DNA from: Acidobacteriota bacterium
GTDB lineage: Bacteria > Acidobacteriota > Thermoanaerobaculia > Gp7-AA8
Direction: 5' to 3'
DNA length: 64,000 nucleotides
Assembly (NCBI GenBank): GCA_003223645.1
Contig: QHVT01000003.1
Span: forward strand, 496,001-560,000
The notes under the pieces were generated by a model. That model was not told the origin of the DNA, did not search any database, and was given only the letters and a program-made list of their open reading frames with translations. Positions 13-14,289 of this stretch are shown here, in pieces (positions within the stretch are counted from its first letter, which is position 1; each line of letters starts with the position of its first letter). A program made the position numbers and the translations under genes.

Positions 13-77
13 CGATGTCAATTTGCTTTCCGCGAAGTCATCGATCCTTTCGGCGATGTCAATTTGCTTTCCGCGAA
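13..77. repeat. 24-bp direct repeat, two copies
   Basis: The 24 bases at 13-36 recur exactly at 54-77 (core CAATTTGCTTTCCGCGAA), 41 bp apart. The second copy contains the stop codon and last codons of the STAND gene read on the minus strand; the first copy offers the same stop in another frame. This looks like a short local duplication at the 3' end of the gene. The window edge prevents seeing whether more copies follow. Confidence 0.85.
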
Positions 78-1768
78 AGCAGTAGTGCATCGGCGACTTG
101 CCGAGCGTCCGCGGGACGACTGGACATCGCCAGCGTGAGGAGAATGCGCGTCATGGCCGAGCGCAAGATATGCGGCGCGCTCGGCGCCTCTTGGAAGATC
201 GACAGCAGTTCGCCGAACGCCTGCAGCGCCTGGCGCGGCTTCATCAACCGGACGAATAGCTGAATGCGCTGGCTGAGTGCGCGACAACGCCACAACGTCG
301 TCTCGCCACGAACCGGCCACCCGCGCTCCTCGCGGGCGGCGACCTCGAGCACCTCGCGCAGCGCGCGATCGGCCCGCACCATCGATCCGCCGAGGAGTTC
401 CGCCTCAGCTAGCGAGAGTTCGATCTCCGCGTAGCGGCGCGTGAGGTCCGTCGTGCCGGTGTGCGACGGCGCGAGCACCTCGCGCGCGCCGTCCAGAGCG
501 ACGCACTGTTGGTGAAAGGCTGCCGCGTTGCGCGCAAGCTCGTAGCCGCCGTTGTAGAAGTCGAACGCGGCGCGGCTGCGACCCAACGCGGAGCTGAGGC
601 GGCCGCCGAGCAACGTGTCGTCGAAGACCGCGGAATCGAGATGCGCGACGATGCGCGACCCGGCTTCGACGAATGCGCCTTGCTTAGCCACCGCCAAGCG
701 CGCTGACAACATCATGATCTCGTGTGCGAAGGTCGATTGCGGGCCAGAGATCGATTCCGAGATGATCGCTTTCGCGCAGAGATACAGGCGCGCGGCCTCC
801 ATGTCTGAAGGTTGCAGTTCCGTGATGCGCTGCACCTGCGCGGCGTCGATCTCGAAGCCGCCAAACGCTGCGGCGGTCAGGTACGGCAGCACTATGCGAC
901 CGTCCGCACGATCGAGCACGCTGCCGATGCGGCTTTCGAGGAAGTGGTCGAGGACCGCGGGCAAGCGGGTCAGCTCGCGCTCGAATCCAGGCACGTCGTT
1001 GACGCGGACCCGCTCGTTGTAGCGCGTTACGTAACCCCCGTCGATCGCCCAGAGGAGGACGTTGGTGACGAACAGCGCGTTGCCACCGGCCTTGCGGTAG
1101 ATTGCGTGCGCGAAGTCCTTGCGTTGCTCCGCGCTGACGCGTGACTCTAGCGCGGCCGCCAGCTCGGTCTCACTCAACGGACAAATATCGGCGAAGGCAA
1201 CTCGCTGAGTGTCGGTGCGCAAGCGGTCGAGCAGCTCGCCGAAGCGAGGGTTGTCGTAGCCAGTGCGGTACTCGAGCAGCAGGCGCATATCGCCCCATCC
1301 GATATCGCCGATCGCGGAGAACAACAGTTCGAGAGCGCGCACGACGCGGGGCGCGAGGTGATGCGCGTTGCTGATCAGCAGCATGCGCCGCCGCGGGTTC
1401 TGGGACAGCAATCTCGCGCAAAGGAACGTGAGCACTTCGACGTCGACTGCGTGCAGCTCGCCGTCCGCAAGCAGCCGCGCGACGACCTCGGCATCGGTGC
1501 GCCGGTCGTCGGTGAGAAGGCGCTCCAGCGATGCTGCGAGCAACTCGCGGTCAGGAGGCTCCGCCGCCTCGCCGAATTCGGGGACGATCAGCCACCAGAG
1601 CATGCGAAAAAAGACGCTTTCGCTGCTGTCCGGCGTGGCGGTGATCGTCAAGCATCGGTAGTCGCGCTGCGTGTGCAACGACGTGCAGAGCTTCAGGCAA
1701 AGGTACGTCTTGCCGACGCCACCCTCGCCGCCGATTACCAGCACATTGGGGGCCCGCCGGATCGGCAA
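59..1768 (-). CDS. STAND-type P-loop ATPase with TPR-like C-terminus (C-terminal part of frameshifted gene)
   Basis: This 569-residue ORF begins at a TTG and opens almost at once with a Walker A loop, GGEGGVGKT (about residues 13-21). At about 125-135 a hydrophobic strand ends in LLISNAHHL where Walker B normally has an acidic residue, so the usual Asp/Glu is replaced. Residues about 390-560 are helical with A/L-rich pairs resembling TPR or MalT-like repeats. STAND ATPases of this shape act as signal sensors that oligomerise. The start is unlikely to be real: it overlaps the upstream ORF by 218 bases, and the upstream ORF ends in a frame-shifted reading of this P-loop. I read the two as one gene of about 860 codons broken by a single-base shift near 1745-1760. 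Probable antiphage Avs-like sensor, by architecture only. Confidence 0.72.
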   Translation of the reverse strand: MPIRRAPNVLVIGGEGGVGKTYLCLKLCTSLHTQRDYRCLTITATPDSSESVFFRMLWWLIVPEFGEAAEPPDRELLAASLERLLTDDRRTDAEVVARLLADGELHAVDVEVLTFLCARLLSQNPRRRMLLISNAHHLAPRVVRALELLFSAIGDIGWGDMRLLLEYRTGYDNPRFGELLDRLRTDTQRVAFADICPLSETELAAALESRVSAEQRKDFAHAIYRKAGGNALFVTNVLLWAIDGGYVTRYNERVRVNDVPGFERELTRLPAVLDHFLESRIGSVLDRADGRIVLPYLTAAAFGGFEIDAAQVQRITELQPSDMEAARLYLCAKAIISESISGPQSTFAHEIMMLSARLAVAKQGAFVEAGSRIVAHLDSAVFDDTLLGGRLSSALGRSRAAFDFYNGGYELARNAAAFHQQCVALDGAREVLAPSHTGTTDLTRRYAEIELSLAEAELLGGSMVRADRALREVLEVAAREERGWPVRGETTLWRCRALSQRIQLFVRLMKPRQALQAFGELLSIFQEAPSAPHILRSAMTRILLTLAMSSRPADARQVADALLLSRKAN

Positions 1769-3108: not shown

Positions 3109-3245
3109 CCACTGTGTGAATGACGATCCCCGTCCCTGGATATCCTAGGATGTACGTAGTTTCAGTAGTTTACGAGCGACCCGGGATATCCCGGGATAGC
3201 CTGGGATGGCCGTAGGCCGACCCTGCGAACACTCCGCGAACACTA
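3109..3245. repeat. att-like repeat, copy A (left remnant)
   Basis: This segment aligns with 5178-5310: both run CCACYGTGTGAATGA, then CCCCGTCCCTGGA, GTAGTTTCA, AGTTTACGAGC and finally GACCCTGCGAACACT followed by CCGCGAACACT. It lacks the tRNA acceptor and T-arm sequence that precedes copy B. The middle (about 3136-3212) also contains GGGATATCCCGGGAT words that can fold on themselves. I interpret it as the left end of an older or related tRNA-Val-targeted insertion. Confidence 0.7.
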
Positions 3246-3316
3246 TCGTGCTTGTTCGGGACGATTTCGCATGCTCGAAACCTAGCAGGCTTTCCGGTTT
3301 GCGCACAAAGTCGAAT

Positions 3317-3778
3317 TTACAGCGGGCTCTTTTTAGTCTCCTGCGCCGATCGCAGTGCGTCGGGTTCGACGCCGAATAGGGGTGCTAGCAGATACCCGGT
3401 GTATGTGACGTAGAGGGCTTCTAGCGCTGTGAGGAAAAGCTTTGCTTGATCGAAGTCCTCAAACGCGCGGTTGAGTGCGCGCAGGATGATCGTGAGCGCG
3501 ATCGTCATGCTAAAGAGCACCGGTAGTAACCACGTGAGCGTCACGTAGGCGGCATTGACGCGTTTGCCGCGCGGCGCGTCATGGCGATGCTGTGCGAAGT
3601 ATCGGATAACAACGGTGGTGATTCCGGCGAACATGGGGACAACGATTGCCAGAAGTGTGGTCATGTCAGGGAATTCATACCCGCCGAGGAAGAAGCACAC
3701 AATGATCGTTGCAATGATCGCAAAGTGGGTGATTACCCAGAAGAGTCCGATCCGCGTGCGAAGCTCTGCGTCGGTCAT
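3317..3778 (-). CDS. Small four-helix membrane protein, unknown function
   Basis: A 153-residue protein with four hydrophobic segments at about residues 11-32, 38-60, 80-102 and 112-133, separated by a short basic loop (AQHRHDAPRGKR). I do not recognise the family. Its start overlaps the stop of the upstream lipoprotein gene by four bases (ATGA), so the two are translationally coupled and probably work together at the inner membrane and periplasm. The pair is isolated between two att-like repeats, which suggests imported cargo. Confidence 0.75.
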   Translation of the reverse strand: MTDAELRTRIGLFWVITHFAIIATIIVCFFLGGYEFPDMTTLLAIVVPMFAGITTVVIRYFAQHRHDAPRGKRVNAAYVTLTWLLPVLFSMTIALTIILRALNRAFEDFDQAKLFLTALEALYVTYTGYLLAPLFGVEPDALRSAQETKKSPL

Positions 3779-5058
3779 TTGTCTACCTCCAAGCGTTTGA
3801 GTGTTGTGAGGAGATCACCCAGATACCCGATGAGTTCTGGATAGTGTTCCAGATCCATGGGTCGTGTGTAGCTCTTCGCCGGCGGGGGTGTGCTGCCGAT
3901 GCCCGGCGCGTAGGATCCGTCGATGGTGACCACGAGCTGCGATGGGTCTCCTTCGATGTTCACGATGACGAGTTGGAGTTTTTCCCAGCGATGTGCACCG
4001 AGGAGGACTTCGTCTCGCAGCGCATCGGCCGTCAGGAGGAGTATGTTCGGTCGCGAGTCGACTTGGACTCGCCCGCGCGCAAACCGGTCGCGCAAGTACA
4101 CTTCACTTGCCGCCAGTAGTCTCTGGCCGGACGTGACGACGGACGACATCGTGGCGGCCACCTCAGACCCTTCACTGCCACCTCCACTCCAGCCCATCTC
4201 GTACTCCCTGGCAAACTCGTCCCGGTACTGTCGTGTGTAGTCTGTCGTGCAGTAGAGGTGGTCTAGGCGATCGAGGGACTCATCGTTGAGCCTGTACGTG
4301 AGTTCCCAATACGGATTCGTGGTCTCGGCAACGATCCGAAGGTTTACAGCGCTAGGAGTGACATCGAGCTCGTCAGCCATGCGATAGATCATGCGCAACG
4401 CCAACGTTGGGCCCAGCTCAGCTATGAGGTCGTTCCACAATTTGCTGAGGTGGACTTCGTTATGGGGTTCTGTCGTGCTCAGAAGGAGTGTCACTTCCCA
4501 CTCATGGTCCACCCATGCAACTTCGTCGACCGCGAGAATCCCTTGCAGGCCGCTCGTGGCCAGCCAGGTTGCATACGACTCGCAGACCGATATTGGCGCA
4601 AACCGCCTTGGGCGGGGAGTCTTGGGGGGTGCAATGGCGGCGGCCGCAGCAGCATCGCGAAGGAGATTCAGGAACGCACTTTCGTGACATGGCGCTTGAT
4701 CAGTATTCTTCCCCTCGTTGGTCCCCGTGCCACCTTTGGCTGTCTCGCCGGTAGTGTCTGGTTCAGTACCGCCACGAGCCACAGCAGCATCCCGAACGTA
4801 GCGATTCAGCAAGTCGACTTCCTGACACAACGCTTGTGCTTGGGTCAGTTGAATTGCAAGCTCCAACTCAGGTTGGGTCTTCGGCAGTTCGAAAACAATT
4901 TTGTTCCCCATGCGGTCTGGAGTCGCGGTATCACCCTCCGCGCTGTTGCCGGTATCTGCCGCCGCCGCGCGTCCAGGGGCTGTGGATCGGGGCTTCGGCG
5001 TAGAGACGAGCGAACAGGCCTGCAGCCCTAGAACAGCCACCCAAAGCAGTTTCCTCAT
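3775..5058 (-). CDS. Predicted lipoprotein, unknown function
   Basis: About 427 residues from the ATG at 5056-5058 (another ATG lies four codons upstream). The N-terminus is a lipoprotein signal: MRKLLWVAVLGLQAC, with LQAC as lipobox and the acylated Cys at residue 15. A Gly/Ala/Thr-rich low-complexity linker follows, then a mixed alpha/beta region with four or so scattered Cys. No known domain is recognised. It is the first gene of a two-gene unit with the membrane protein at 3317-3778. It could be a surface or periplasmic partner of that protein; an envelope-stress or defence role would be a guess from location only. Confidence 0.75.
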   Translation of the reverse strand: MRKLLWVAVLGLQACSLVSTPKPRSTAPGRAAAADTGNSAEGDTATPDRMGNKIVFELPKTQPELELAIQLTQAQALCQEVDLLNRYVRDAAVARGGTEPDTTGETAKGGTGTNEGKNTDQAPCHESAFLNLLRDAAAAAAIAPPKTPRPRRFAPISVCESYATWLATSGLQGILAVDEVAWVDHEWEVTLLLSTTEPHNEVHLSKLWNDLIAELGPTLALRMIYRMADELDVTPSAVNLRIVAETTNPYWELTYRLNDESLDRLDHLYCTTDYTRQYRDEFAREYEMGWSGGGSEGSEVAATMSSVVTSGQRLLAASEVYLRDRFARGRVQVDSRPNILLLTADALRDEVLLGAHRWEKLQLVIVNIEGDPSQLVVTIDGSYAPGIGSTPPPAKSYTRPMDLEHYPELIGYLGDLLTTLKRLEVDK

Positions 5059-5145
5059 CGGTTGCTCCACTTGGTCCCCAGGTTGACGCTACAACGAGGA
5101 GTGACATTCGCGACGGTTTTCCCTACCAGCGGAAACAAGTGCAGC

Positions 5146-5310
5146 TTGGTAGGCGCTAGCGGACTCGAACCGCTGACCCACCGTGTGAATGATGCTCCCC
5201 GTCCCTGGACATCCCAGGCTATCCGTAGTTTCAACAGTTTACGAGCATCCCAAGATGTCCTAAGACGTCCCAGCCGTAGTGCGACCCTGCGAACACTCCG
5301 CGAACACTTC
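5146..5310. other. attL: tRNA-Val 3' fragment plus integrase arm-type repeats (copy B)
   Basis: Bases 5147-5189 repeat the 3' half of the tRNA-Val gene at 12,525-12,600 (CCA end, acceptor strand, T-arm, anticodon-stem strand and loop), with two bases missing in a C run. Immediately inside lies a segment shared with copy A, ending in the direct repeat GAACACTCCGCGAACACT at 5291-5308. A similar pair lies just inside the right end of the element. This is the expected layout of attL: displaced tRNA piece, then arm-binding sites. Confidence 0.75.
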
Positions 5311-5318
5311 CGCCGCCA

Positions 5319-5579
5319 TCAGGTGGACTCCACGCTCGCCGCTTCGGTCGGGATGCGATTGGTGAGAAGCATTTCGCAGAATGCCTCGCGGGTCATGTCG
5401 AGCACTGGTTCCGACGCCCCGGCGTCTCCGAGGAGTTGCGGTCCGAGGAGCGCCTTTCGGTTGAGCGCATCGAGAATTGCGGAATCGATGGTGTCCTCAC
5501 CCAGCAGCCGTAGATACGTGACGGGCAGGGACTGTCCGATGCGGTGATTCCGATCTTGGCTTTGCGCGTAGAGGTCGTA
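5319..5579 (-). pseudogene. C-terminal remnant of an SNF2-family helicase
   Basis: The last 86 codons read QSQDRNHRIGQ, then PVTYLRLLGEDTID and DALNRKA. This is the motif VI region and post-motif helices that end SNF2/RapA helicases (the family usually has QAxDRxHRIGQ and a later ExTID). The N-terminal roughly 90% (both RecA lobes) is missing. Upstream of about 5580 the frame continues as unrelated Arg-rich sequence. The break coincides with the point where an oppositely oriented membrane-protein frame begins, so a deletion joined the two. Confidence 0.75.
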
Positions 5580-5632
5580 GCGCCGCCGCCTCGCGGAGCA
5601 CCTCCGCGATCGCAAGTCGAGCCGGCTGCATC

Positions 5633-5815
5633 GCGACAGGTGAGGTCGGAATTCTTGCGACGATCGCGCTCGCGATTCTCCTCGTGACGTGGCCGACAGA
5701 CCTCGTGCATCTCGCCTTCGCCCTCGTCGCGGGCGGACTCCTGGGTGTCGCGCTGCGCTCATTCATTCGTGCACATCATGAACGCCAATCCCTACCAGAG
5801 CACGACGCGCACTGA
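5633..5815 (+). CDS. Small two-helix membrane protein, probably missing its N-terminus
   Basis: An open frame gives VGILATIALAILLVTW, then DLVHLAFALVAGGLLGVAL and a basic/acidic tail ending at TGA 5813-5815: two transmembrane helices in about 60 residues. No ATG, GTG or TTG precedes the first helix in frame before the SNF2 remnant. So either the start is non-canonical or the 5' end was lost at the junction near 5580-5630. It overlaps the start of the zinc-finger gene by 38 bases, as cotranscribed genes often do. Confidence 0.4.
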   Translation, partial: ATGEVGILATIALAILLVTWPTDLVHLAFALVAGGLLGVALRSFIRAHHERQSLPEHDAH

Positions 5816-6173
5816 AGAACTCTCGACCGAGCGCACCGTGATCATTGACCCGGCGACGGGCGAGGTGATCACGATCGGTGCACGCATCGAGCGCACCATG
5901 ATCGATGAAGCCTCGGGCCAGGAGCGGCGGGACGTGATGAACGTCGTCGTACCAACAGCCGATGGCAAGCAACTCCTCTTCCCGTACAACGAGCCGCTCT
6001 ATGCGTGCGCGAGCTGCGGCGCAAAGCCGCTTGTGCACGCCATGCAGTGCGCCGCCTGCGGACGGTTCATGTGCGACGCGTGCCGCATCAAGACAGAAGC
6101 CGGCATCATTTGCCGCACGTGCGCCGACAAACCGTGGTGGGCGAAAGCATGGGAATGGCTCACGAACCTGTAG
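5778..6173 (+). CDS. Zinc-finger protein, unknown function
   Basis: A 131-residue protein starting at ATG 5778-5780. An upstream ATG in frame exists, but this one fits the overlap with the preceding frame. Residues about 1-75 are polar. The C-terminal part has four CxxC pairs (CASC, CAAC, CDAC, CRTC), enough for two zinc sites in a ribbon or B-box-like fold, followed by an amphipathic Trp-rich end (WWAKAWEWL). The next gene, a HerA/TraG-like ATPase, starts inside its last codons, so a joint role in DNA handling or membrane docking by the element is likely. The exact function is unknown. Confidence 0.7.
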   Translation: MNANPYQSTTRTEELSTERTVIIDPATGEVITIGARIERTMIDEASGQERRDVMNVVVPTADGKQLLFPYNEPLYACASCGAKPLVHAMQCAACGRFMCDACRIKTEAGIICRTCADKPWWAKAWEWLTNL

Positions 6174-8305
6174 CGCGGCTCGACCCGCAACGCTTTCCGA
6201 CGACGCGCGAACGCCGCGCGGATGATCGAGCAATCGACGCGATCCACGCCGATGTGCGCCGGTACGCGCTCGACGAACACTTCCCGCGCATCCGTCAGCT
6301 GCTCAATCGGCTCGACCGCTCCGGGCGCGAACGTGATCTGCGAGAGCTGCGCGATGTCATCACACCGCATGTCACGTACCACGAACGCGAATATCCCTTC
6401 GCCGTAGCCCCATCGGGCACATTCAGTGGGGATTTCTCGCTGCACGCACGGCAAGTTGCGGACCAGCGCCCGCTCTCCATCCACAGCTCCCTCCTGGCTG
6501 GACATGCCATGGCCGTCGGACGAAGCGGCGCGGGAAAAACAACACTCGCGCAGACGCTTGCGCGCGAGGCGTACGACCACAACCTCAGCGTCGTCACCAT
6601 CGATGCGAAGGACGACGCTGCGTACTTCCTCACCGCGTATCCCGCCACGCTCCTCATCGGACCGAGCACGCCGATACCAGTGCTCGAAGTACCCTCGTGG
6701 CTCTCACGCGCTGAATACAAACGTCTCATCACGAAAGTGTTGCGTCGAACGTGGTGGGGCGGACAAGGCACGGACCAAGTCGGCGGCGAGAGTATGGATG
6801 TCGCATACCGCACGCACGACCATCCTTCCATCGAAGATTGGCGCAACAGCCTCCTCGGACTGCGCCACAAAGGAGATACGTACAACCGCGTCGACCGCAT
6901 CGATGCTACCGCAGCAAAGCTCGCACAGCTCATCGACCGGTACCCTGGTATTGGCAAGACGCCGGCAGGTAGCGGTCTGCATCTCGACCTGCTGTGCACG
7001 AGCAGCATGTACTTCGGCTTTCGCATTCACACCGAGGTGGAAGATTTCCTCACGACCTGGCTGCTCGAACTTCGTCTTGCGCACCATCGCGCGCAGAACA
7101 TTCGCGCTCTCGACACGCTCACCCTCATCGACGAATCAGTCCTCCTGTTGCACGAGAACACGATCACCGAGACCGCAAGCATCGCGCCCACGTTTCCGCT
7201 CCTGCGCGAGTTTGGCATCGCCTGTCTCACGACGACGAACAACTACCGCTCACTTCCTGACGCGGTGAAATCAAACACGACGACGCACTGCGTGCTCGCG
7301 ATGAGCGACGCTCGCGAACAACGCGCCGTGTGCGACACGATCGGACTAGATACCAACCAACGCGAGTACCTCGCGACGAAGCTTGCTCCCGGCACGTTCA
7401 TCCTGAAGACGGCCGGCGAATGGCAATTCCCCGTCCTCACCAAGTTCGACGAAGTCAGAACCGCGAAGCACATTTCGCCTAACGAGTGGCGCGCCGCAGA
7501 AGAACGTACGAATCAGCATGCGCGAACAGCACCTCCTGTGCATTTGGCACCAAGGGAAGAGTGCGAGAGCACCGGGCAGCCGACGCCGTCGCAAACTACC
7601 GCGCCGTCAGCATCACCACCGTCACGCGTTGCGCCGGTGGTGGAGAACACCACTCCGCCGAACACCCGGAAGGCTGCGCTCAACAAACACTGCGCGGCGG
7701 TCATGCACGACGTAGACGAGCATCACCTCACGCTCACAACCCCCTGCTTCCATCGCTGCAACGTGCGACTTTCCGAAGGTGATCGGGCGAAGACGCTTCT
7801 CACCAACATCGGCTTTCTCGAATCGCACCGCGTACGCACGGGCGCTGGCCGGGGAAAGACCGGAAGCGCACTGCGCCTCACGCCGGCAGGATGGGCATGG
7901 CTCGGCAGAAAGCCGCCGAAGGGAACACGTGGCGCAGGTGTGCAGCACGAGTTCGTCGTTCACGAACTCGCTCGCCGAATCCCGCGCAGCACGATCGAGA
8001 CACTCGGCGCAGACCTCGTGATTGCGTACAACACAGCAGAGCACCAGCAACTGCAGAACGCGTTGCAGACACTCAAGGCCGGAACGATTGCGCTCAACGA
8101 TGGCGACCTCGTGGCTCTCGAATGCGAGGTGAGTGCGGCAAGCAAGACCGCTCCCTGCAACGTGGCTCGCGACGCAGGCTTTGCGCTGACGATCATCGCG
8201 ACGATGGCCGAGACGGAGAAGTTGCAACGAACTTTCGCCGAGACGGATCGCGTAATGGTTGTCGATGTGCTGCGCCTCTTGGACACACTGCGGGAGGAGC
8301 GATGA
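6149..8305 (+). CDS. HerA/TraG/VirB4-like ATPase with C-terminal winged-helix and possible nuclease/relaxase-like domain
   Basis: About 718 residues from ATG 6149 (an in-frame ATG follows at 6155). Walker A is GRSGAGKTT (about 123-131) and Walker B is LTLIDES (about 324-330). The stretch after it, FGIACLTTTNN, fits the sensor/Gln-finger strand of HerA-FtsK ATPases. The ATPase region ends near residue 450. After a Pro/Thr-rich linker come a helix-turn-helix region with a basic wing (about 515-590) and an alpha/beta segment containing LVALECEV (about 650), which recalls the E-x-E strand of replication-relaxation or PD-(D/E)XK folds; that last point is tentative. It probably pumps or couples DNA for the element's transfer or maintenance. 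It overlaps the zinc-finger gene (25 bp) and the HTH gene (4 bp), so it belongs to one operon. Confidence 0.75.
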   Translation: MGMAHEPVARLDPQRFPTTRERRADDRAIDAIHADVRRYALDEHFPRIRQLLNRLDRSGRERDLRELRDVITPHVTYHEREYPFAVAPSGTFSGDFSLHARQVADQRPLSIHSSLLAGHAMAVGRSGAGKTTLAQTLAREAYDHNLSVVTIDAKDDAAYFLTAYPATLLIGPSTPIPVLEVPSWLSRAEYKRLITKVLRRTWWGGQGTDQVGGESMDVAYRTHDHPSIEDWRNSLLGLRHKGDTYNRVDRIDATAAKLAQLIDRYPGIGKTPAGSGLHLDLLCTSSMYFGFRIHTEVEDFLTTWLLELRLAHHRAQNIRALDTLTLIDESVLLLHENTITETASIAPTFPLLREFGIACLTTTNNYRSLPDAVKSNTTTHCVLAMSDAREQRAVCDTIGLDTNQREYLATKLAPGTFILKTAGEWQFPVLTKFDEVRTAKHISPNEWRAAEERTNQHARTAPPVHLAPREECESTGQPTPSQTTAPSASPPSRVAPVVENTTPPNTRKAALNKHCAAVMHDVDEHHLTLTTPCFHRCNVRLSEGDRAKTLLTNIGFLESHRVRTGAGRGKTGSALRLTPAGWAWLGRKPPKGTRGAGVQHEFVVHELARRIPRSTIETLGADLVIAYNTAEHQQLQNALQTLKAGTIALNDGDLVALECEVSAASKTAPCNVARDAGFALTIIATMAETEKLQRTFAETDRVMVVDVLRLLDTLREER

Positions 8306-8493
8306 CGCGGCACCTCAGCGCATCGGCTGTCGCGCAACTCATCGGTATCAAAACCGGGACGTTCGCGAAGTGGCGGCGCGAGGGGAGGGGACCCGCGGGA
8401 TGGTTTCACGTCAGCACCACGCTCGTCGTGTACCCCATGGACGAAGTAGAGCGCTACCTCGCAGAGCAAAAACGCACTGCTTCTGGGCACTAG
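8302..8493 (+). CDS. Small HTH protein, AlpA/excisionase-like
   Basis: A 63-residue protein starting at ATG 8302 and overlapping the ATPase stop by four bases (ATGA). The sequence has the MerR-like helix-turn-helix shape of excisionases and AlpA regulators: SASAVAQLIGIKTGTFAKW, a Gly/Pro turn, then a wing ending in VYPMDEVERYLAEQK. Its position directly before an integrase supports a recombination-directionality or promoter-control role. Confidence 0.8.
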   Translation: MTRHLSASAVAQLIGIKTGTFAKWRREGRGPAGWFHVSTTLVVYPMDEVERYLAEQKRTASGH

Positions 8494-8531
8494 CTTTTTT
8501 CGTCTAACGACGCATTGTTGTCTTGCTTCCG

Positions 8532-9701
8532 ATGCGACCTGTTGGCCTGAAGTCCTACGACAAGTACACGAAGAAAGCCGTCTTCGAGTGCAGCGTACCG
8601 GGCACACGCGGCCACAAACGCATCCGCAAAGTCGTCAAGGTAGAAAGCTGGGACGACCTCGAAAAGAAGCTCAGCGCATTCAGGCACTCCGTCCAACATC
8701 CCGAGCAAGCGATCACACTTCCCGGCGACATTCCGACGCTACGCGCGTACGTCGCAACCGCGTGGGAGAGCATCAGCAGCCGCCTCTCGGACGCGAAGCG
8801 GAAGAATCAGCACGCGCAGCTTGAGCAGCACATCACGCCGGCACTTGGCAACGTGCGCATCGACCAGGTCACGATCGCGCACCTTGAGGACTTCGTCAGC
8901 GTCATGCAGCGCAAACGGCACGACGAGCGGGCGTACAGCAACGCAACGATCAACTCGTGCCTGCACCTCTTGCGCAAAATTCTCAAGCATGCTTGGCGAC
9001 GACGCGTCCTTGCCGACTACCCGTTGCGCGAAAAGCTCCCGCTCCTGCCCGAGCCAATCGTGCAGAACGAACTCACCGTCGACGAACGTGAGGCGTTCCT
9101 CGCCAGCTTCCACGACGAAGCGGGCTTTCGAGCACACTTCATCGCAACCGCACTCGCCAGCCGCGCGGAGCGCAAGCACCAACCGCCCAACGCGCAGAGC
9201 GACTACGTCACCTACGCCTTTGAGCGCTTCGCATGGAGCAAGCCGCTCTTCATCCTCGCGCTCTACACCGGGCTGCGACGCTCCGACCTACGACTCCTGA
9301 AGTGGACGAGCATCGACCTGCACGCCGGCGTCATCCGTCTCGTGATGCGCAAGACGAAACGCTCCGTGCTTCTCCCCATCGTGCCGCGCGTGCGCGCAGC
9401 ACTCGAAACGTGCCGCGGTCGGACGGTGATGAGCGAGTACGTGCTCGTCACGCCCGACGGCCGACCGTACGCCGAGTCAACGATCAAGCGCTACTTCAAG
9501 ACCGCCAAGGCACTCGCCGGCATCACGCGGCGCTTCCGCTTCCACGATCAACGTCACACCTTCGCGAGCACCCTCGCAAGCAAAGGCATCAACAGCTTCA
9601 CGCTGCGCGACCTCCTCGGCCACACGAGCACCAGGACCACCGAGCGCTACGCGCGGCCGAGCGCCGAAGCGCTCGACGCGGTGGCGCGAGCGCTGGCCTA
9701 A
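8532..9701 (+). CDS. int: Tyrosine recombinase / phage-type integrase
   Basis: About 389 residues from ATG 8532; a TTG three codons upstream is an alternative. The N-terminal third is an arm-binding and SAM-like core-binding region. The catalytic domain shows the Arg of box I in YTGLRRSDL, a beta-strand Lys in MRKTKRS, the H-x-x-R box FHDQRHTFAS, and GHTSTRTTERYAR with the nucleophilic Tyr. It should integrate the element at the tRNA-Val site by recombining sequences within the tRNA, binding the GAACACT-type arm repeats at both ends. It follows the HTH gene by 38 bases. The att site at 12.5 kb is separated from it by three cargo genes, which is less usual than direct adjacency. Confidence 0.93.
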   Translation: MRPVGLKSYDKYTKKAVFECSVPGTRGHKRIRKVVKVESWDDLEKKLSAFRHSVQHPEQAITLPGDIPTLRAYVATAWESISSRLSDAKRKNQHAQLEQHITPALGNVRIDQVTIAHLEDFVSVMQRKRHDERAYSNATINSCLHLLRKILKHAWRRRVLADYPLREKLPLLPEPIVQNELTVDEREAFLASFHDEAGFRAHFIATALASRAERKHQPPNAQSDYVTYAFERFAWSKPLFILALYTGLRRSDLRLLKWTSIDLHAGVIRLVMRKTKRSVLLPIVPRVRAALETCRGRTVMSEYVLVTPDGRPYAESTIKRYFKTAKALAGITRRFRFHDQRHTFASTLASKGINSFTLRDLLGHTSTRTTERYARPSAEALDAVARALA

Positions 9702-9747
9702 GCGAATCGTTCGGGTCTTACCCCGTGAGCTACCGGATGGATGGAAT

Positions 9748-9777
9748 AAAGCGCCCGGAGTGGCTCGCTTTCTTTTC
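9748..9777 (+). terminator. Possible terminator after the integrase
   Basis: AAAGCG (9748-9753) can pair with CGCTTT (9766-9771) and is followed by CTTTTC. The stem is short and the T run weak. The position between the convergent ends of int and the lipoprotein gene makes it plausible. Confidence 0.35.
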
Positions 9778-9785
9778 GGGGTCAT

Positions 9786-10676
9786 CTACATCGGCTTCGG
9801 AGAGAACGGCAACCCTTTGCTTACATCGTCGAGGAGCTTAATTGCTTCGCGAATCTCCTTGGAAAGATCCTCAGGTAAATCGGAGATGGATTCGAGACTT
9901 TTGAAACATTTGAGGAGGGCTGCGAGGCCCTCGTCCTGGGAAGACCCTTCTGATTTTATCGCTGCTGTGAGCTTTTGGAGGCCGGCCATCAGATTGTCAT
10001 CGAAGGCGTGGAGCCGAACGATGGCGGCCGTCTGGTCCGGGTTCGTCGCGCCCTGAGATAGGATATCTAACTCTCGCAGCATCCCGTTTACGGCGGTCTC
10101 CATGTCGTTTGCGCTCTCCACGTAGGCCGTCATCGCCCCGATGGATTCCTCTAGGTTCTTGACTGATGACCCCAATTCCCCTTGGGCTTGATCGAAGACG
10201 TTCGCCGTATCACCTAAAGCAGACCTCCCGGTGGACAGGTCGGCCGTAAGGCCTGGGATTGCCTTGTGAATCTCGTCCAGCACCGTTTGAGCTCGAAGGA
10301 TCGAAGCCTTGATTTCCGCCCGGACTGGGCGGGTAAAGCGAAGAGTTTCTGACAGGCCGATCAGCTGGGGGAGGAGACTCTGGAAGCCGGTTAGATTTTG
10401 CGCTTTCGGATCGTCCTTGAGCAAAGTGAAACCTCGCTCAATCGCCTTGAGATCTCTTGTTTGCACCGTGAGGGTCGCGGCGACGTACAGCCATGCATTT
10501 GTAGTGTCTGCCGCCACACTCTTGACGGCGCGCGCGTGCGCTCCGATTTGCTGAGGGTCCCCTGGAGAGTGGCAGCCAACGAGCACGAGTACGGTTAGAA
10601 GCGCCCACAGCATGGGGCGGACCGCCATCGGTCGGATTCTCGCGCTCGTATCGCACGTCGGCTCTGGAGTATTCAT
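9786..10676 (-). CDS. Predicted lipoprotein with helical periplasmic domain
   Basis: About 296 residues using the ATG at 10,674-10,676, which has a good ribosome site (GAGGA) a few bases upstream. A lipoprotein signal, MLWALLTVLVLVGC, has its lipidation Cys at about residue 34. The rest is predominantly helical, with heptad-like Leu/Ile spacing and no catalytic signature; long amphipathic stretches suggest coiled coils, as in periplasmic sensor domains. It is the last gene of a three-gene minus-strand operon with two membrane proteins. Function unknown; base composition is less GC-rich than in the chromosomal genes downstream. Confidence 0.72.
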   Translation of the reverse strand: MNTPEPTCDTSARIRPMAVRPMLWALLTVLVLVGCHSPGDPQQIGAHARAVKSVAADTTNAWLYVAATLTVQTRDLKAIERGFTLLKDDPKAQNLTGFQSLLPQLIGLSETLRFTRPVRAEIKASILRAQTVLDEIHKAIPGLTADLSTGRSALGDTANVFDQAQGELGSSVKNLEESIGAMTAYVESANDMETAVNGMLRELDILSQGATNPDQTAAIVRLHAFDDNLMAGLQKLTAAIKSEGSSQDEGLAALLKCFKSLESISDLPEDLSKEIREAIKLLDDVSKGLPFSPKPM

Positions 10677-10707
10677 GCTTCCTCGCTGCGGGGCCATCTT
10701 ACTTTCA

Positions 10708-11424
10708 CTAGAAGGGAAACCTCAGCGTCTCGTAAACTGGAGGTGACCTGTCTACAAGTTTCTTCAGCGCGTCCACGAAGCTGACGAGGTCGGAGTGTAT
10801 CTTCCCGAGGGAACTGATTCTTGATTCCTGGTCGTAGTGGAGCGAGCTCAGAATGTTCCATTCGGTATAGGCTGGTTCGGCAAGCAGAACGGGATTGGTT
10901 CCAATTCCGATCGCCGTCTTCTTCGTACTCAATTCTGTGTCTTCGATCGTTTGTTGAACCCTTGGAGCCCATTCTTCAAGTGCTCGAATTGTCTTTAGAA
11001 GCTCACTACGGTCGATCCCCTCCCTGAGACCCTTGGTCACGAGACGGCATAGCTTAATCTCTTGAACTACCATCTTCTGACTCGACTCCAGTCGCCTACC
11101 GTCCCTATAGATCAGCTCTGCCCACGACAAAAGAGGGGCGCCTGACGGCCCGTAAGGGCTTTCCCTTTGTGAAATCCATGTAATCCTCTCCTGCGTTCGC
11201 GCTTCATCTTTCTCCATGCCACTAAGATTAGCTTCGGCCGACGTGATGTGGTCGTTGAGGACGAACTCCACAGTCTCTAACGTTCGTAGCGCATCCTCGG
11301 ACAATCGCGGCTTCGGAGGTACGACATTGCGGCTCTGGTTCCAGAGGTAGAAGAAGGAACCGCCGTATGGAATACCAACAGCAAGCAGCCCAACGAGGAT
11401 TCTCTTTCCTGCAATTGGCGGCAC
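10708..11424 (-). CDS. Single-pass membrane-anchored helical protein
   Basis: 238 residues starting with GTG at 11,422-11,424, one base into the stop of the upstream gene (TAGTG), so translation is coupled. A membrane anchor lies at about residues 7-27 (ILVGLLAVGIPYGGSFFYLW). The remaining 200 residues are charged and helical, probably periplasmic. No family recognised. It may interact with the lipoprotein encoded next and the multi-pass protein encoded before it. Confidence 0.72.
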   Translation of the reverse strand: MPPIAGKRILVGLLAVGIPYGGSFFYLWNQSRNVVPPKPRLSEDALRTLETVEFVLNDHITSAEANLSGMEKDEARTQERITWISQRESPYGPSGAPLLSWAELIYRDGRRLESSQKMVVQEIKLCRLVTKGLREGIDRSELLKTIRALEEWAPRVQQTIEDTELSTKKTAIGIGTNPVLLAEPAYTEWNILSSLHYDQESRISSLGKIHSDLVSFVDALKKLVDRSPPVYETLRFPF

Positions 11425-12212
11425 TATAGGCCCCCCAGAAAAGGCGTGATCAACGGCTCGAAGACCTCATAGAGTCTCCGCCCGGCTCCAATGACAAAGG
11501 GCTTGACGAGTAATAGCGCGCCAATGCTTGCGGCAGCGGCGAGGCACGTACGCAAATAGGACAGCTTGTGGGTTGCATGTAAAGCCCACACAGTACACAT
11601 CAGGAAAAACAGCGCGAGGTAAAAATACGCTGTCACGAACCCGGCAACTATGAGGAGGTTGCCGGTCGTCGGAACGAACGGCTTGAAGCCAACGACTCCG
11701 AGTGGCGGAATCACGAGCCAATACGTAGAGATAGCGGACGCAACGAGCTGGCTAAGAAAGATCATCAGCAGGGTCGTGCCTGGGACGAGGAAAGCATAGA
11801 TACGCAGGCTCGCAGTGAAAGTCGCACGAAGGGTCGCTCGCCCCGAAAGGAGCCGACACCCGGCATGGAGGAAGGCCACGAACAGCAGGATCAGAATCCA
11901 GTAAGTAAAAATCAATTCATCCTTCTTGATGGCGCGGGTGGACGATCCGGTCACAGTTTCAGGGATCAGCCTCAGCTCAATGAGCACAAATGCAGAGGTT
12001 AGGATGAAGGCAAACGCCATGTAGATGAGAGAGAGCTTGCCTTGCCCCTTCCCTTGCGCATCGAACTCCGCTATAGAAATGCGAGGGGATCTGAAAAACC
12101 TCCAGGCTTCCTTCCCGAAGGAAGCCGCTGTATCCAGGATCCCCATGTTCAGCGGGGGCTCGTCGGGGTTCTGCCGTGCGGATCGCGAGGACTCACCATG
12201 TCCACTACTCAT
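11424..12212 (-). CDS. Multi-pass membrane protein, possibly Yip1-like
   Basis: From ATG 12,210-12,212 (263 residues; GGGAG about 12 bases upstream). The open frame extends 53 codons further to 12,371, but that stretch is Arg/Ser-rich and lacks support. After a polar N-terminus there are five or six hydrophobic segments, beginning LSLIYMAFAFILTSAFVLI, with the longest cluster in the C-terminal half. The spacing of helices recalls bacterial YIP1-family proteins, but this is a weak match by eye. First gene of the cargo operon between int and the tRNA. Confidence 0.65.
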   Translation of the reverse strand: MSSGHGESSRSARQNPDEPPLNMGILDTAASFGKEAWRFFRSPRISIAEFDAQGKGQGKLSLIYMAFAFILTSAFVLIELRLIPETVTGSSTRAIKKDELIFTYWILILLFVAFLHAGCRLLSGRATLRATFTASLRIYAFLVPGTTLLMIFLSQLVASAISTYWLVIPPLGVVGFKPFVPTTGNLLIVAGFVTAYFYLALFFLMCTVWALHATHKLSYLRTCLAAAASIGALLLVKPFVIGAGRRLYEVFEPLITPFLGGL

Positions 12213-12435
12213 CTCAGAGACACTCCCCAGCGTTGGCCACGCCGCGGCAGACGATTGCAAAGAGCTGAAACCGGCCCGCCGCGACTCTCCCACTCCGTTC
12301 CAGGACGTGAAGCGAATGACCTCTACGATAGGAGTGACGCTCACGCGCGTTTCCCTACCGGTGCAGAGCACGAGGCGACGCGGGGACGGGTGTGTTCAGC
12401 GTGACGATGGTGACTTGGGACCCAACCCCGACCCG

Positions 12436-12465
12436 GTGAACACTTGCGTGAACATTTTCCGCCGA
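12436..12465. other. attR arm-type repeat
   Basis: GTGAACACTTGCGTGAACATTTTCCGCC contains two direct copies of a GTGAACA(C/T)T word 12 bases apart. It resembles the GAACACTCCGCGAACACTTCCGCC block just inside the left end (5291-5314). Similar repeats inside both ends of an integrated element are expected for integrase arm-binding sites. Confidence 0.55.
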
Positions 12466-12473
12466 AGGAAGGC

Positions 12474-12510
12474 AAAAAAAGAGCCGCCCGGTCTGGCTAA
12501 CCTGAGCGGC
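12474..12510 (-). terminator. Rho-independent terminator of tRNA-Val
   Basis: Read on the minus strand, GCCGCTC (with one G-T pair and a small bulge) pairs with GGGCGGC around a loop of about 12 bases and is followed by TCTTTTTTT. It lies 15 bases past the tRNA 3' end. Because it is on the element side of the junction, the element appears to supply a terminator for the restored tRNA. Confidence 0.75.
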
Positions 12511-12524
12511 GTGAGTAGGTTGCA

Positions 12525-12600
12525 TGGTAGGCGCTAGCGGACTCGAACCGCTGACCCCCACCGTGTGAAGGTGATGCTCTACCAGCTGAGCTAAGCGCCT
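12525..12600 (-). tRNA. tRNA-Val (anticodon CAC)
   Basis: A 76-nt cloverleaf with encoded CCA: acceptor strands AGGCGCT and AGCGCCT, a D arm beginning AGCTCAGCTGGTAGAGC, an anticodon stem TCACC/GGTGG (one T-G pair) enclosing loop TTCACAC with anticodon CAC, and T arm AGCGG TTCGAGT CCGCT. The discriminator is A. The anticodon reads the Val codon GUG, which is frequent in this GC-rich DNA. It is the attachment site of the adjacent element. Confidence 0.96.
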
Positions 12601-12742: not shown

Positions 12743-13774
12743 ATGCGACGGCTGGCGAAGGCGGCGGGGGTGACGGCGGTGGCGGCTGCGCTCGGGGTGG
12801 TCGCGGAGCGCGCGTGCGTCGCGTCGCCGCATTATCACGGGCCGGTGAGCGATCACTTCGACGGGAAGCGCTTCCACAACCTGCAGTCGGGGTGGCAGTC
12901 GGGCGGGTCGTTTCTGAAGTGGATGATGAACCGGCAGCAGGGGGCGTGGCCGGAGTGGGTGGACACGATTCCTGGTCCGCCGCCGCCGCGGCGGGTGGAT
13001 GACGGGCGCATTCGGGTCACGTGGGTGAATCACTCCACGATGCTGGTGCAGATGGACGGGGTGAATCTGCTCGCTGATCCGGTGTGGAGCGAGCGCACGT
13101 CGCCGGTTCCGTCGATCGGTCCGAAGCGGCATCGTGCGCCGGGGTTACGGTTCGAGGATCTGCCGCCGATCGATGCGGTGCTGGTGAGTCACAACCATTA
13201 CGATCATCTCGATCTGCCGACGCTGCGGCGGTTGCACGGCGTCGGCATCATCACGCCGCTCGGGAGCTCGGCGTTGATGGCGCGTCACGGCGTGAAGAAC
13301 GCGCGCGATCTCGATTGGTGGCAGAGCGTCCGCGTGTCCGATCGCGTGACCGTCACGCTCGTGCCTGCGCAGCATTTCTGCGCGCGGGGGTTGTCGGATC
13401 GCAACGCGACGCTGTGGGGCGGGTTCGTGATCAGCGGGCCGTCAGGCAACGCCTATTTCGCGGGCGACACGGGGTGGGGGAATCATTTCGCGGACATCGC
13501 GAAGCGCTTCGGCGCGATCCGTGTGGCGATGCTTCCGATCGGCGCGTATCTGCCGCGCTGGTTCATGAAGTCGGCGCACATTTCGCCGGCCGAAGCGGTC
13601 GACGCGCATCTTGCTCTGCACGCGGAGACGAGCATCGCGATGCACTACGGGACGTTTCGCAACGCTGACGACGGATACGAAGAGCCGGTGCACGACTTGC
13701 GCGCGGCGCTCGCGGCGAAAGGGAATCCGCGCTTTCTCGTCGTCGAGCATGGTATCGGCGTCGACGTGCCGTAG
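12743..13774 (+). CDS. MBL-fold metal-dependent hydrolase (NAPE-PLD/UlaG-like)
   Basis: 343 residues from ATG 12,743, whose N-terminus (MRRLAKAAGVTAVAAALGV) looks like a signal or membrane anchor. The metallo-beta-lactamase metal motif is SHNHYDHLD (about residue 150). FAGDTGW follows later, and HYGTF near the end supplies another ligand His. The WVNHSTMLVQ and LLADPVWSERTSP motifs are typical of the branch that includes bacterial homologues of N-acylphosphatidylethanolamine phospholipase D. A lipid or cyclic-ester substrate is inferred. It stands alone downstream of the tRNA and upstream of a minisatellite. Confidence 0.88.
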   Translation: MRRLAKAAGVTAVAAALGVVAERACVASPHYHGPVSDHFDGKRFHNLQSGWQSGGSFLKWMMNRQQGAWPEWVDTIPGPPPPRRVDDGRIRVTWVNHSTMLVQMDGVNLLADPVWSERTSPVPSIGPKRHRAPGLRFEDLPPIDAVLVSHNHYDHLDLPTLRRLHGVGIITPLGSSALMARHGVKNARDLDWWQSVRVSDRVTVTLVPAQHFCARGLSDRNATLWGGFVISGPSGNAYFAGDTGWGNHFADIAKRFGAIRVAMLPIGAYLPRWFMKSAHISPAEAVDAHLALHAETSIAMHYGTFRNADDGYEEPVHDLRAALAAKGNPRFLVVEHGIGVDVP

Positions 13775-13876
13775 TGGTCTAGGAGCCTGCGCGGCAGTAG
13801 AGCAGTAATACGGCGTAAGTCGCACGTCCGAATCGGCAGTTTGCGCGTGCGGATCGTCATTTCGCGCGTGCGGATC

Positions 13877-14289
13877 GGCCGGTTGCAAATGAAAACAGGC
13901 CCGTCGCAAACGAAAACAGGCCGGTTGCAAATGAAAACAGGCCGGTTGCAAATGAAAACAGGCCGGTTGCAAACGAAAACAGGCCGGTTGCAAATGAAAA
14001 CAGGCCGGTTGCAAATGAAAACAGGCCGGTTGCAAACGAAAACAGGCCGGTTGCAAATGAAAACAGGCCGGTTGCAAACGAAAACAGGCCGGTTGCAAAT
14101 GAAAACAGGCCGGTTGCAAATGAAAACAGGCCCGTTGCAAATGAAAACAGGCCGGTTGCAAACGAAAACAGGCCCGTTGCAAACGAAAACAGGCCGGTTG
14201 CAAATGAAAACAGGCCGGTTGCAAATGAAAACAGGCCCGTTGCAAACGAAAACGGGCCGGTTGCAAATGAAAACAGGCCGGTTGCAAAT
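13877..14289. repeat. 21-bp minisatellite, 19.7 copies
   Basis: Nineteen full units of GGCCGGTTGCAAATGAAAACA and a final 14-bp part unit run without gaps. Units vary at only a few positions: AAAT or AAAC, GGCCGG or GGCCCG, and one GTCG. Because 21 is a multiple of three, both strands stay open, giving artefactual long frames (KTGRLQM or ACFHLQP repeats). The array is bracketed by two copies of ATTTCGCGCGTGCGGATCG (13,859-13,877 and 14,289-14,307). No spacers, so it is not CRISPR. Confidence 0.97.

Follow-up and report, generated by a model that had tools for sequence, protein, structure and literature searches.

A tRNA-Val(CAC) integrative element stacked on older insertions in an Acidobacteriota genome

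What separates a fragment of a tRNA-Val gene from the intact tRNA-Val(CAC) gene in an Acidobacteriota chromosome, and how could the two have come apart? We analyzed a 64-kb stretch of DNA around this locus (64,000 nucleotides; hereafter, the window) and call the segment at window positions 5147-12525 E2, its left neighbor at 3109-5147 E1, the source genome G000, and its contig C21. The first-pass annotation had taken a tRNA 3′ fragment at 5147-5189, an intact tRNA, and GAACACT-type repeats just inside both ends as marks of attL and attR, and all three signs were borne out. The intact gene was identified by ARAGORN (Table 1), and the 36 nt at 5144-5179 are 97% identical to 12522-12557, with a gapped alignment (two 2-nt gaps) extending the displaced half past the anticodon loop to ∼5197. 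A 32-nt tRNA-Val pattern occurs exactly twice in the window against 0.00 expected from 100 shuffles. The strict arm pattern, GAACACTN{3,6}GAACAYT, has three matches in 64 kb (0.00 expected), all at element ends; two of them are the left and right pairs of E2, and the third is the left pair of E1. The clean tRNA-Val that the annotation had proposed to seek in a relative without the insert was found in G001, a genome of the same genus, where tRNA-Val(CAC) is followed by its terminator and has neither displaced fragment nor arm pair, representing an unoccupied site. Judged from its DNA sequence, E2 is thus confirmed as an integrative element seated in the 3′ half of tRNA-Val(CAC).

Table 1. Features of E1 and E2, in order of window position
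Feature	Position	Strand	Evidence
Decayed att remnant, left end of E1	3109..3125	-	
Left-arm repeat pair of E1, GCGAACACT x2, period 11	3227..3244	+	
E1 cargo: membrane protein gene	3317..3778	-	
E1 cargo: lipoprotein-like gene	3775..5070	-	
Displaced 3′ half of tRNA-Val, forming the att site between E1 and E2; match extends through anticodon loop	5147..5197	-	alignment
Left-arm repeat pair of E2, GCGAACACT x2, period 11	5291..5308	+	
C-terminal remnant of SNF2-type helicase (homology ∼5448-5582)	5319..5762	-	PHROG 6.3e-10; PADLOC DpdE 1.1e-6
Probable C-terminal membrane-protein remnant	5624..5797	+	33% over 48 aa, E 4e-5, one pairwise test vs G001
Zinc-finger protein	5745..6173	+	CHY-type 1.3e-3, below cut-off
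HerA/TraG-like ATPase, 718 aa	6149..8305	+	HerA/DUF87 6.7e-4 (below Pfam cut-off); PADLOC mad8 9.4e-13
Small HTH protein, excisionase-like, directly 5′ of int	8302..8493	+	HTH_17 1.5e-5 (just below Pfam cut-off); PHROG excisionase family 1.7e-6
Tyrosine integrase, 389 aa	8532..9701	+	PF00589 1e-29; PHROG integrase 2.3e-47
E2 cargo: lipoprotein-like gene	9786..10697	-	no family above cut-off
E2 cargo: gene of no recognized family	10708..11424	-	no family above cut-off
E2 cargo: membrane protein gene	11424..12371	-	no family above cut-off
Right-arm repeat pair of E2, GTGAACA x2, period 12	12438..12456	+	
tRNA terminator hairpin inside right end of E2	12475..12524	-	similar hairpins after tRNA-Val(CAC) in several relatives
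Intact tRNA-Val(CAC), rebuilt at right end of E2	12525..12600	-	ARAGORN

The annotation had described a single element, and its att sites for E2 were upheld, but it overlooked that E2 is stacked on older insertions with an older end near 3109. A search with the left end of E2 (191 nt) brought up an older copy of it, with 78% identity, at window 3109-3244. E1, 2 kb long, keeps an arm pair at its left end and has none at its right; tblastn with nine integrases (E up to 0.1) detected no integrase in it, and its two proteins matched no transfer family above cut-off. Farther out, part of a related integrase gene survives at C21:491677-491802 (62-64% over ∼40 aa), ∼4.3 kb to the left of where the window begins; it is the first clear trace of an element and was set as the left edge of the island. 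An outermost att fragment of the array was sought and not found. Going by the order of these pieces, E2 is the newest, tRNA-proximal unit of a tandem array, followed by E1 and then by remains reaching ∼4.3 kb left of the window. A larger island spanning 33.5 kb to tRNA-Val(GAC) was rejected: the match at C21:474959 is the intact GAC gene, and the genes between it and ∼C21:491640 look chromosomal by their sequences. The older part of the island also holds an AAA-type ATPase gene (window 59-1744) and BsuBI/PstI-type restriction and methylase genes (G000:C21:492385-494803), and the E1 membrane protein weakly resembles a SMODS-associated 4TM effector (0.0094, below cut-off).

We then compared the site across the family (18 genomes, source genome included). 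Displaced tRNA-Val(CAC) 3′ fragments are present in G000, G017, G008, G006, G015, and G016, and in G014 a 15-nt tRNA-Val trace adjoins a piece of an integrase gene with 87% identity over 54 aa. The strict arm pattern has six matches in these genomes, five of which adjoin tRNA-Val(CAC) or its fragment (three in G000 and one each in G007 and G008); the sixth, in G003, has no tRNA within the 3 kb examined. Class-wide (148 genomes), the pattern gives 12 matches vs. 9 for the reversed control, and none of the six matches beyond the family has a tRNA gene within the 2- to 3-kb locus examined. Since the class-wide count is near background, it is the location of the matches, not their number, that carries the evidence.

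A geometry scan that accepted any repeat pair of at least 7 nt, over ∼200 nt per site, gave a more general picture. Seven of nine displaced fragments have an element-side pair at +137 to +175, with period 11 in six fragments and period 12 in G016; no element-side pair of either period was found at the fragment of G006 or at the second one of G016. Toward the tRNA, 12 junctions or tRNAs that bear signs of an insert were scanned, and 5 have a period-12 pair, at -88 to -105. Of eight intact tRNAs without a detected fragment, one (G004) has a period-12 pair, but its distance differs; the pairs in G009 have period 14 and are AT-rich. In random 90-nt stretches, a period-11 or -12 pair turned up in 670 of 20000, and the per-site chance is higher for the ∼200 nt scanned here.

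The word that is repeated differs between elements. E1 and E2 use GCGAACACT; the E2-type word also stands at tRNA-Val in G007 and G008 (TGAACACTT) and in G015, and another word with the same geometry is found in G017 (ATGAAGAGTT, at both ends) and G016 (TTTGAACTC). In G014, a 9.8-kb element at tRNA-Thr, which has HTH and integrase genes, carries TGGACACCCG at either end. No single pair is common to both ends of the G008 insert, the far end of which has a ATGAACGA pair and a lone GAACACT. The G017 word pair occurs at only two places in the 18 genomes, and these are the two ends of its 10.4-kb tRNA-Val insert, which encodes a metallophosphatase, a histidine kinase, a response regulator, a sigma-54 activator, and a protein of unknown family; tblastn found no integrase in this insert. 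Repeat pairs are, therefore, conserved at other insertions, in G007, G008, G015, G017, G016, and the G014 tRNA-Thr element. Moreover, tblastn of 20 regions in 16 genomes did not place any of ten proteins from 3317-12371 beside tRNA-Val in relatives, except for the integrase-gene fragment in G014, so that no relative was seen to keep the E2 genes there without the integrase. Both results support the attL/attR and arm-repeat reading, for which the annotation had named their opposites in advance as grounds for giving it up.

The gene content of E2 is as the annotation described it, namely a HerA/TraG-like ATPase, a zinc-finger protein, a small HTH protein, and an integrase, with some of the profile matches below the Pfam cut-off (Table 1). 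Homologs of the HTH protein were found beside related integrases. The left side of E2 seems to have been deleted, because the C-terminal SNF2 piece abuts the membrane-protein remnant; the G001 counterpart of this remnant is a membrane protein 5′ of the zinc-finger gene. Profile searches of E2 gave no relaxase match, and Replic_Relax aligned collinearly with the ATPase C terminus without significance (hhalign P 0.027 and 0.03; reversed control 0.1). As we read its alignment, this C-terminal part has a possible winged helix and a possible PD-(D/E)xK-like motif; the AlphaFold model of the ATPase, built on three sequences, is of low confidence (mean pLDDT 47.5, C terminus <50). An origin from phage or plasmid was rejected by protein match, as 50,697 phage records and 72,556 plasmid records gave no tblastn match to the ATPase. 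A scan of IMG/VR found no relative of the ATPase, and an IMG/VR match to the arm word was discarded as an unrelated tandem repeat without a tRNA fragment.

In the comparison of gene order in other Acidobacteriota that the annotation had suggested, the series zinc finger, ATPase, HTH, integrase, tRNA reappears in G001 (same genus) and G026 (same class), where the tRNA is tRNA-Met and tRNA-SeC, respectively. The ATPases of G001 and G026 are 43% and 31% identical to that of E2, and their integrases are only distantly related to the E2 integrase (24-28% over the matched parts). A profile search of genome contigs with the ATPase alignment returned G001 and G026 only; across the phylum, at least 4 of 396 genomes had an ATPase match at 1e-15 (two candidates per genome scored). 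Within the stretches examined, the tRNA-Met end of G001 has no arms and no displaced fragment, and near tRNA-SeC of G026, there is only a 7-nt pair and again no displaced fragment. A lipoprotein-like gene lies upstream in the G001 and G026 elements and in elements of G011 and G009. Another type of ATPase lies near a Replic_Relax-type protein in G011, G009, G017, and G013 (PF13814 6.4e-8 in G011; homologs by tblastn). Two of these related elements have an unnamed conserved block, at L107 8143-15957 (G011) and L114 512-8921 (G009), that consists of a small protein, a lipoprotein-like protein, a membrane protein, a Rossmann-like protein, a small membrane protein, a HerA-like ATPase, and Replic_Relax, mostly without Pfam match.

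The integrase itself has matches at 1e-20 in 8 of the 18 family genomes, source genome included. We examined 14 of the 17 other integrase matches: 10 are ≤500 bp from a tRNA gene (Gly, Thr, Arg, Ala, or Pro), one is beside a 50-nt tRNA-Gly fragment in G000, and three have no tRNA nearby. G007, G008, and G015 gave no match at this threshold, but their drafts are 83-92% complete, and absence is not proven.

We consider it highly probable that E2 arose as a tRNA-Val integrative element, an explanation that takes in the stacking and the CIME-like inserts as well. The att structure, arms, tandem order, and conservation in relatives can be read directly from the DNA; the steps that would connect them are as follows. 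The E2 tyrosine integrase would recombine at the anticodon-to-3′ half of tRNA-Val(CAC), with the crossover within the anticodon loop or close to it, judging from the element-side GTGTGAAT, which the left ends of E1 and E2 have in common and which lacks a GG present in the tRNA. The attP would supply a new tRNA 3′ half and terminator, so that an insertion restores the tRNA gene at one end and displaces the old half to the other. The repeat pairs may serve as arm-type integrase sites, with period 11 at the far end and period 12 at the tRNA end; arm-type sites bind the N terminus of tyrosine integrases. The HTH protein is a putative excisionase, which would promote excision. As each insertion would restore tRNA-Val, new elements could stack, E2 beside E1 and E1 beside the older remains, and inserts without an integrase would behave as CIMEs, moved in trans by the integrase of a neighbor or incomer. 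We give about even chances to the zinc-finger/ATPase module driving DNA transfer of the excised circle, as a coupling protein or an FtsK/HerA-like pump. In these terms, E2 has the look of an integrative/mobilizable element that has been partly deleted, and E1 that of its decayed, CIME-type neighbor.

E2 might instead be a dead remnant that integrated once and is now immobile, the integrase-less inserts being deletion products that never moved in trans. The deleted left side of E2, where the SNF2 fragment meets the membrane-protein remnant, the missing right arm of E1, and the integrase fragment at the island edge all fit such decay. However, the E2 integrase ORF is full length and has the motifs GLRRSDL (247), HDQRH (338), LLGHT (361), and ERYAR (371), which we take to be the catalytic motifs of tyrosine integrases; the arms and tRNA half of E2 are well preserved; and the G017 insert, with no detected integrase, retains both arm pairs. 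We hold this alternative to be somewhat doubtful. Less likely still is that the ATPase/zinc-finger pair forms a phage-defense module (MADS- or HerA-like) in a defense island rather than a transfer module. The top ATPase profile is PADLOC mad8 (5.8e-18 in G001), the older part has the BsuBI/PstI-type restriction-modification genes, and HerA chains are among the PDB matches of the ATPase, several of them presumably from defense complexes. Against this, the ATPase in both G001 and G026 is found at a tRNA gene together with a zinc finger, an HTH protein, and an integrase, ATPases lie near a Replic_Relax protein in other elements of the E2 integrase family, and no further Mad gene was found, only a weak generic HTH match to mad1 (0.0047). 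E2 does not qualify as a MADS system, having a mad8-like ATPase and this weak HTH match without a mad gene cluster. It is hardly credible that chance or a segmental duplication produced the tRNA fragment and that it is no att site, since the same arrangement with arm pairs is found at independent insertions in other genera, even if two 2-nt gaps break the match in the anticodon-arm region.

The annotation's statement that the gene content matches no element class was too strong: a tRNA 3′ end, Int/Xis, and a DNA-pump-like ATPase make up an integrative/mobilizable plan. E2 resembles IMEs in its Int/Xis, tRNA target, small size, and cargo and differs in having no recognized relaxase gene, a Replic_Relax protein being found in related elements (G011). 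Parts of PMC3218068 give the AICE plan as att-tra-rep-int-att, and AICEs such as pSAM2 share with E2 a tyrosine integrase with an RDF, insertion at a tRNA 3′ end, and one DNA-translocating ATPase; E2, however, is in another phylum, and its ATPase is nearest HerA/mad8/TraD. Membership was rejected, as the host is not an actinomycete and neither an FtsK/SpoIIIE Tra nor Rep proteins were found: PF01580 is absent among the window ATPase matches (0.002 in G001 and 0.0065 in G026, both below cut-off), and ten window proteins gave no Pfam match for RepSA, RepAM, or Prim-Pol in a model set that contained no RepSA model. The stacking has closer parallels in the ssrA islands of Dehalococcoides, 15 of which lack integration modules and for which CIMEs are suggested in sections of PMC3146451, and in the CIME formation and accretion described in sections of PMC5704250. 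As portrayed there, these are likewise tandem islands, with direct repeats from the end of a tRNA or ssrA gene between them and with or without integration genes, but the ssrA islands use serine recombinases where E2 has a tyrosine recombinase. Unlike the islands compared, E2 and E1 reside in Acidobacteriota, and across the insertions studied here the arm word varies by element within one geometry.

The mechanism and the kind of arrangement, tandem islands with integrase-less members, are thus already known; what appears to be new is their occurrence in an acidobacterial lineage and an arm geometry of two periods in which each element has its own word. Among the open-licence papers that our searches listed, we found none on such a geometry and, by title, none on such elements in a search on Acidobacteria with ICEs, tRNA, and integrases; mobile elements of Acidobacteriota are little described. 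In this family, foreign genes have landed repeatedly at tRNA-Val(CAC), and the rule that emerges (a tRNA 3′ half, a period-12 pair at the tRNA end, and a period-11 pair at the far end, with one word per element) would delimit such insertions exactly, even without an integrase gene, and makes the trans movement of integrase-less inserts testable. A bolder proposal, which we regard as a long shot, is that tRNA-Val(CAC) has evolved into a cassette platform: integrases acting in trans would capture, in succession, gene cassettes furnished with attachment ends alone, every one marked by an arm word of its own in the fixed 12/11-bp geometry, and for transfer autonomous elements like E2 would add a single HerA-like ATPase that includes a relaxation-type domain. 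If true, this would be an integron-like logic built on a tRNA gene. A related known system is the CALIN, presented in part of PMC11389934 as integrase-less integron cassettes that can be mobilized in trans; the inserts here would likewise be gene cassettes without an integrase, but they have tRNA-half att sites and arms instead of attC and are 2-10 kb long with several genes.

Two further observations concern the same genome. Right of the tRNA, window 13442-14287 is a long run of tandem repeat units in overlapping ORFs and is probably non-coding repeat DNA. A tandem arrangement is also seen at tRNA-Gly(CCC) in locus L011 (G000:C21:699001-714140), with an intact tRNA at 1839 and another at 13928. 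The 7-kb part adjoining the first tRNA-Gly(CCC) has no integrase by tblastn, and a 50-nt tRNA-Gly fragment (100% identical) at 8978-9027 is followed by HTH and integrase genes (9183-10568).
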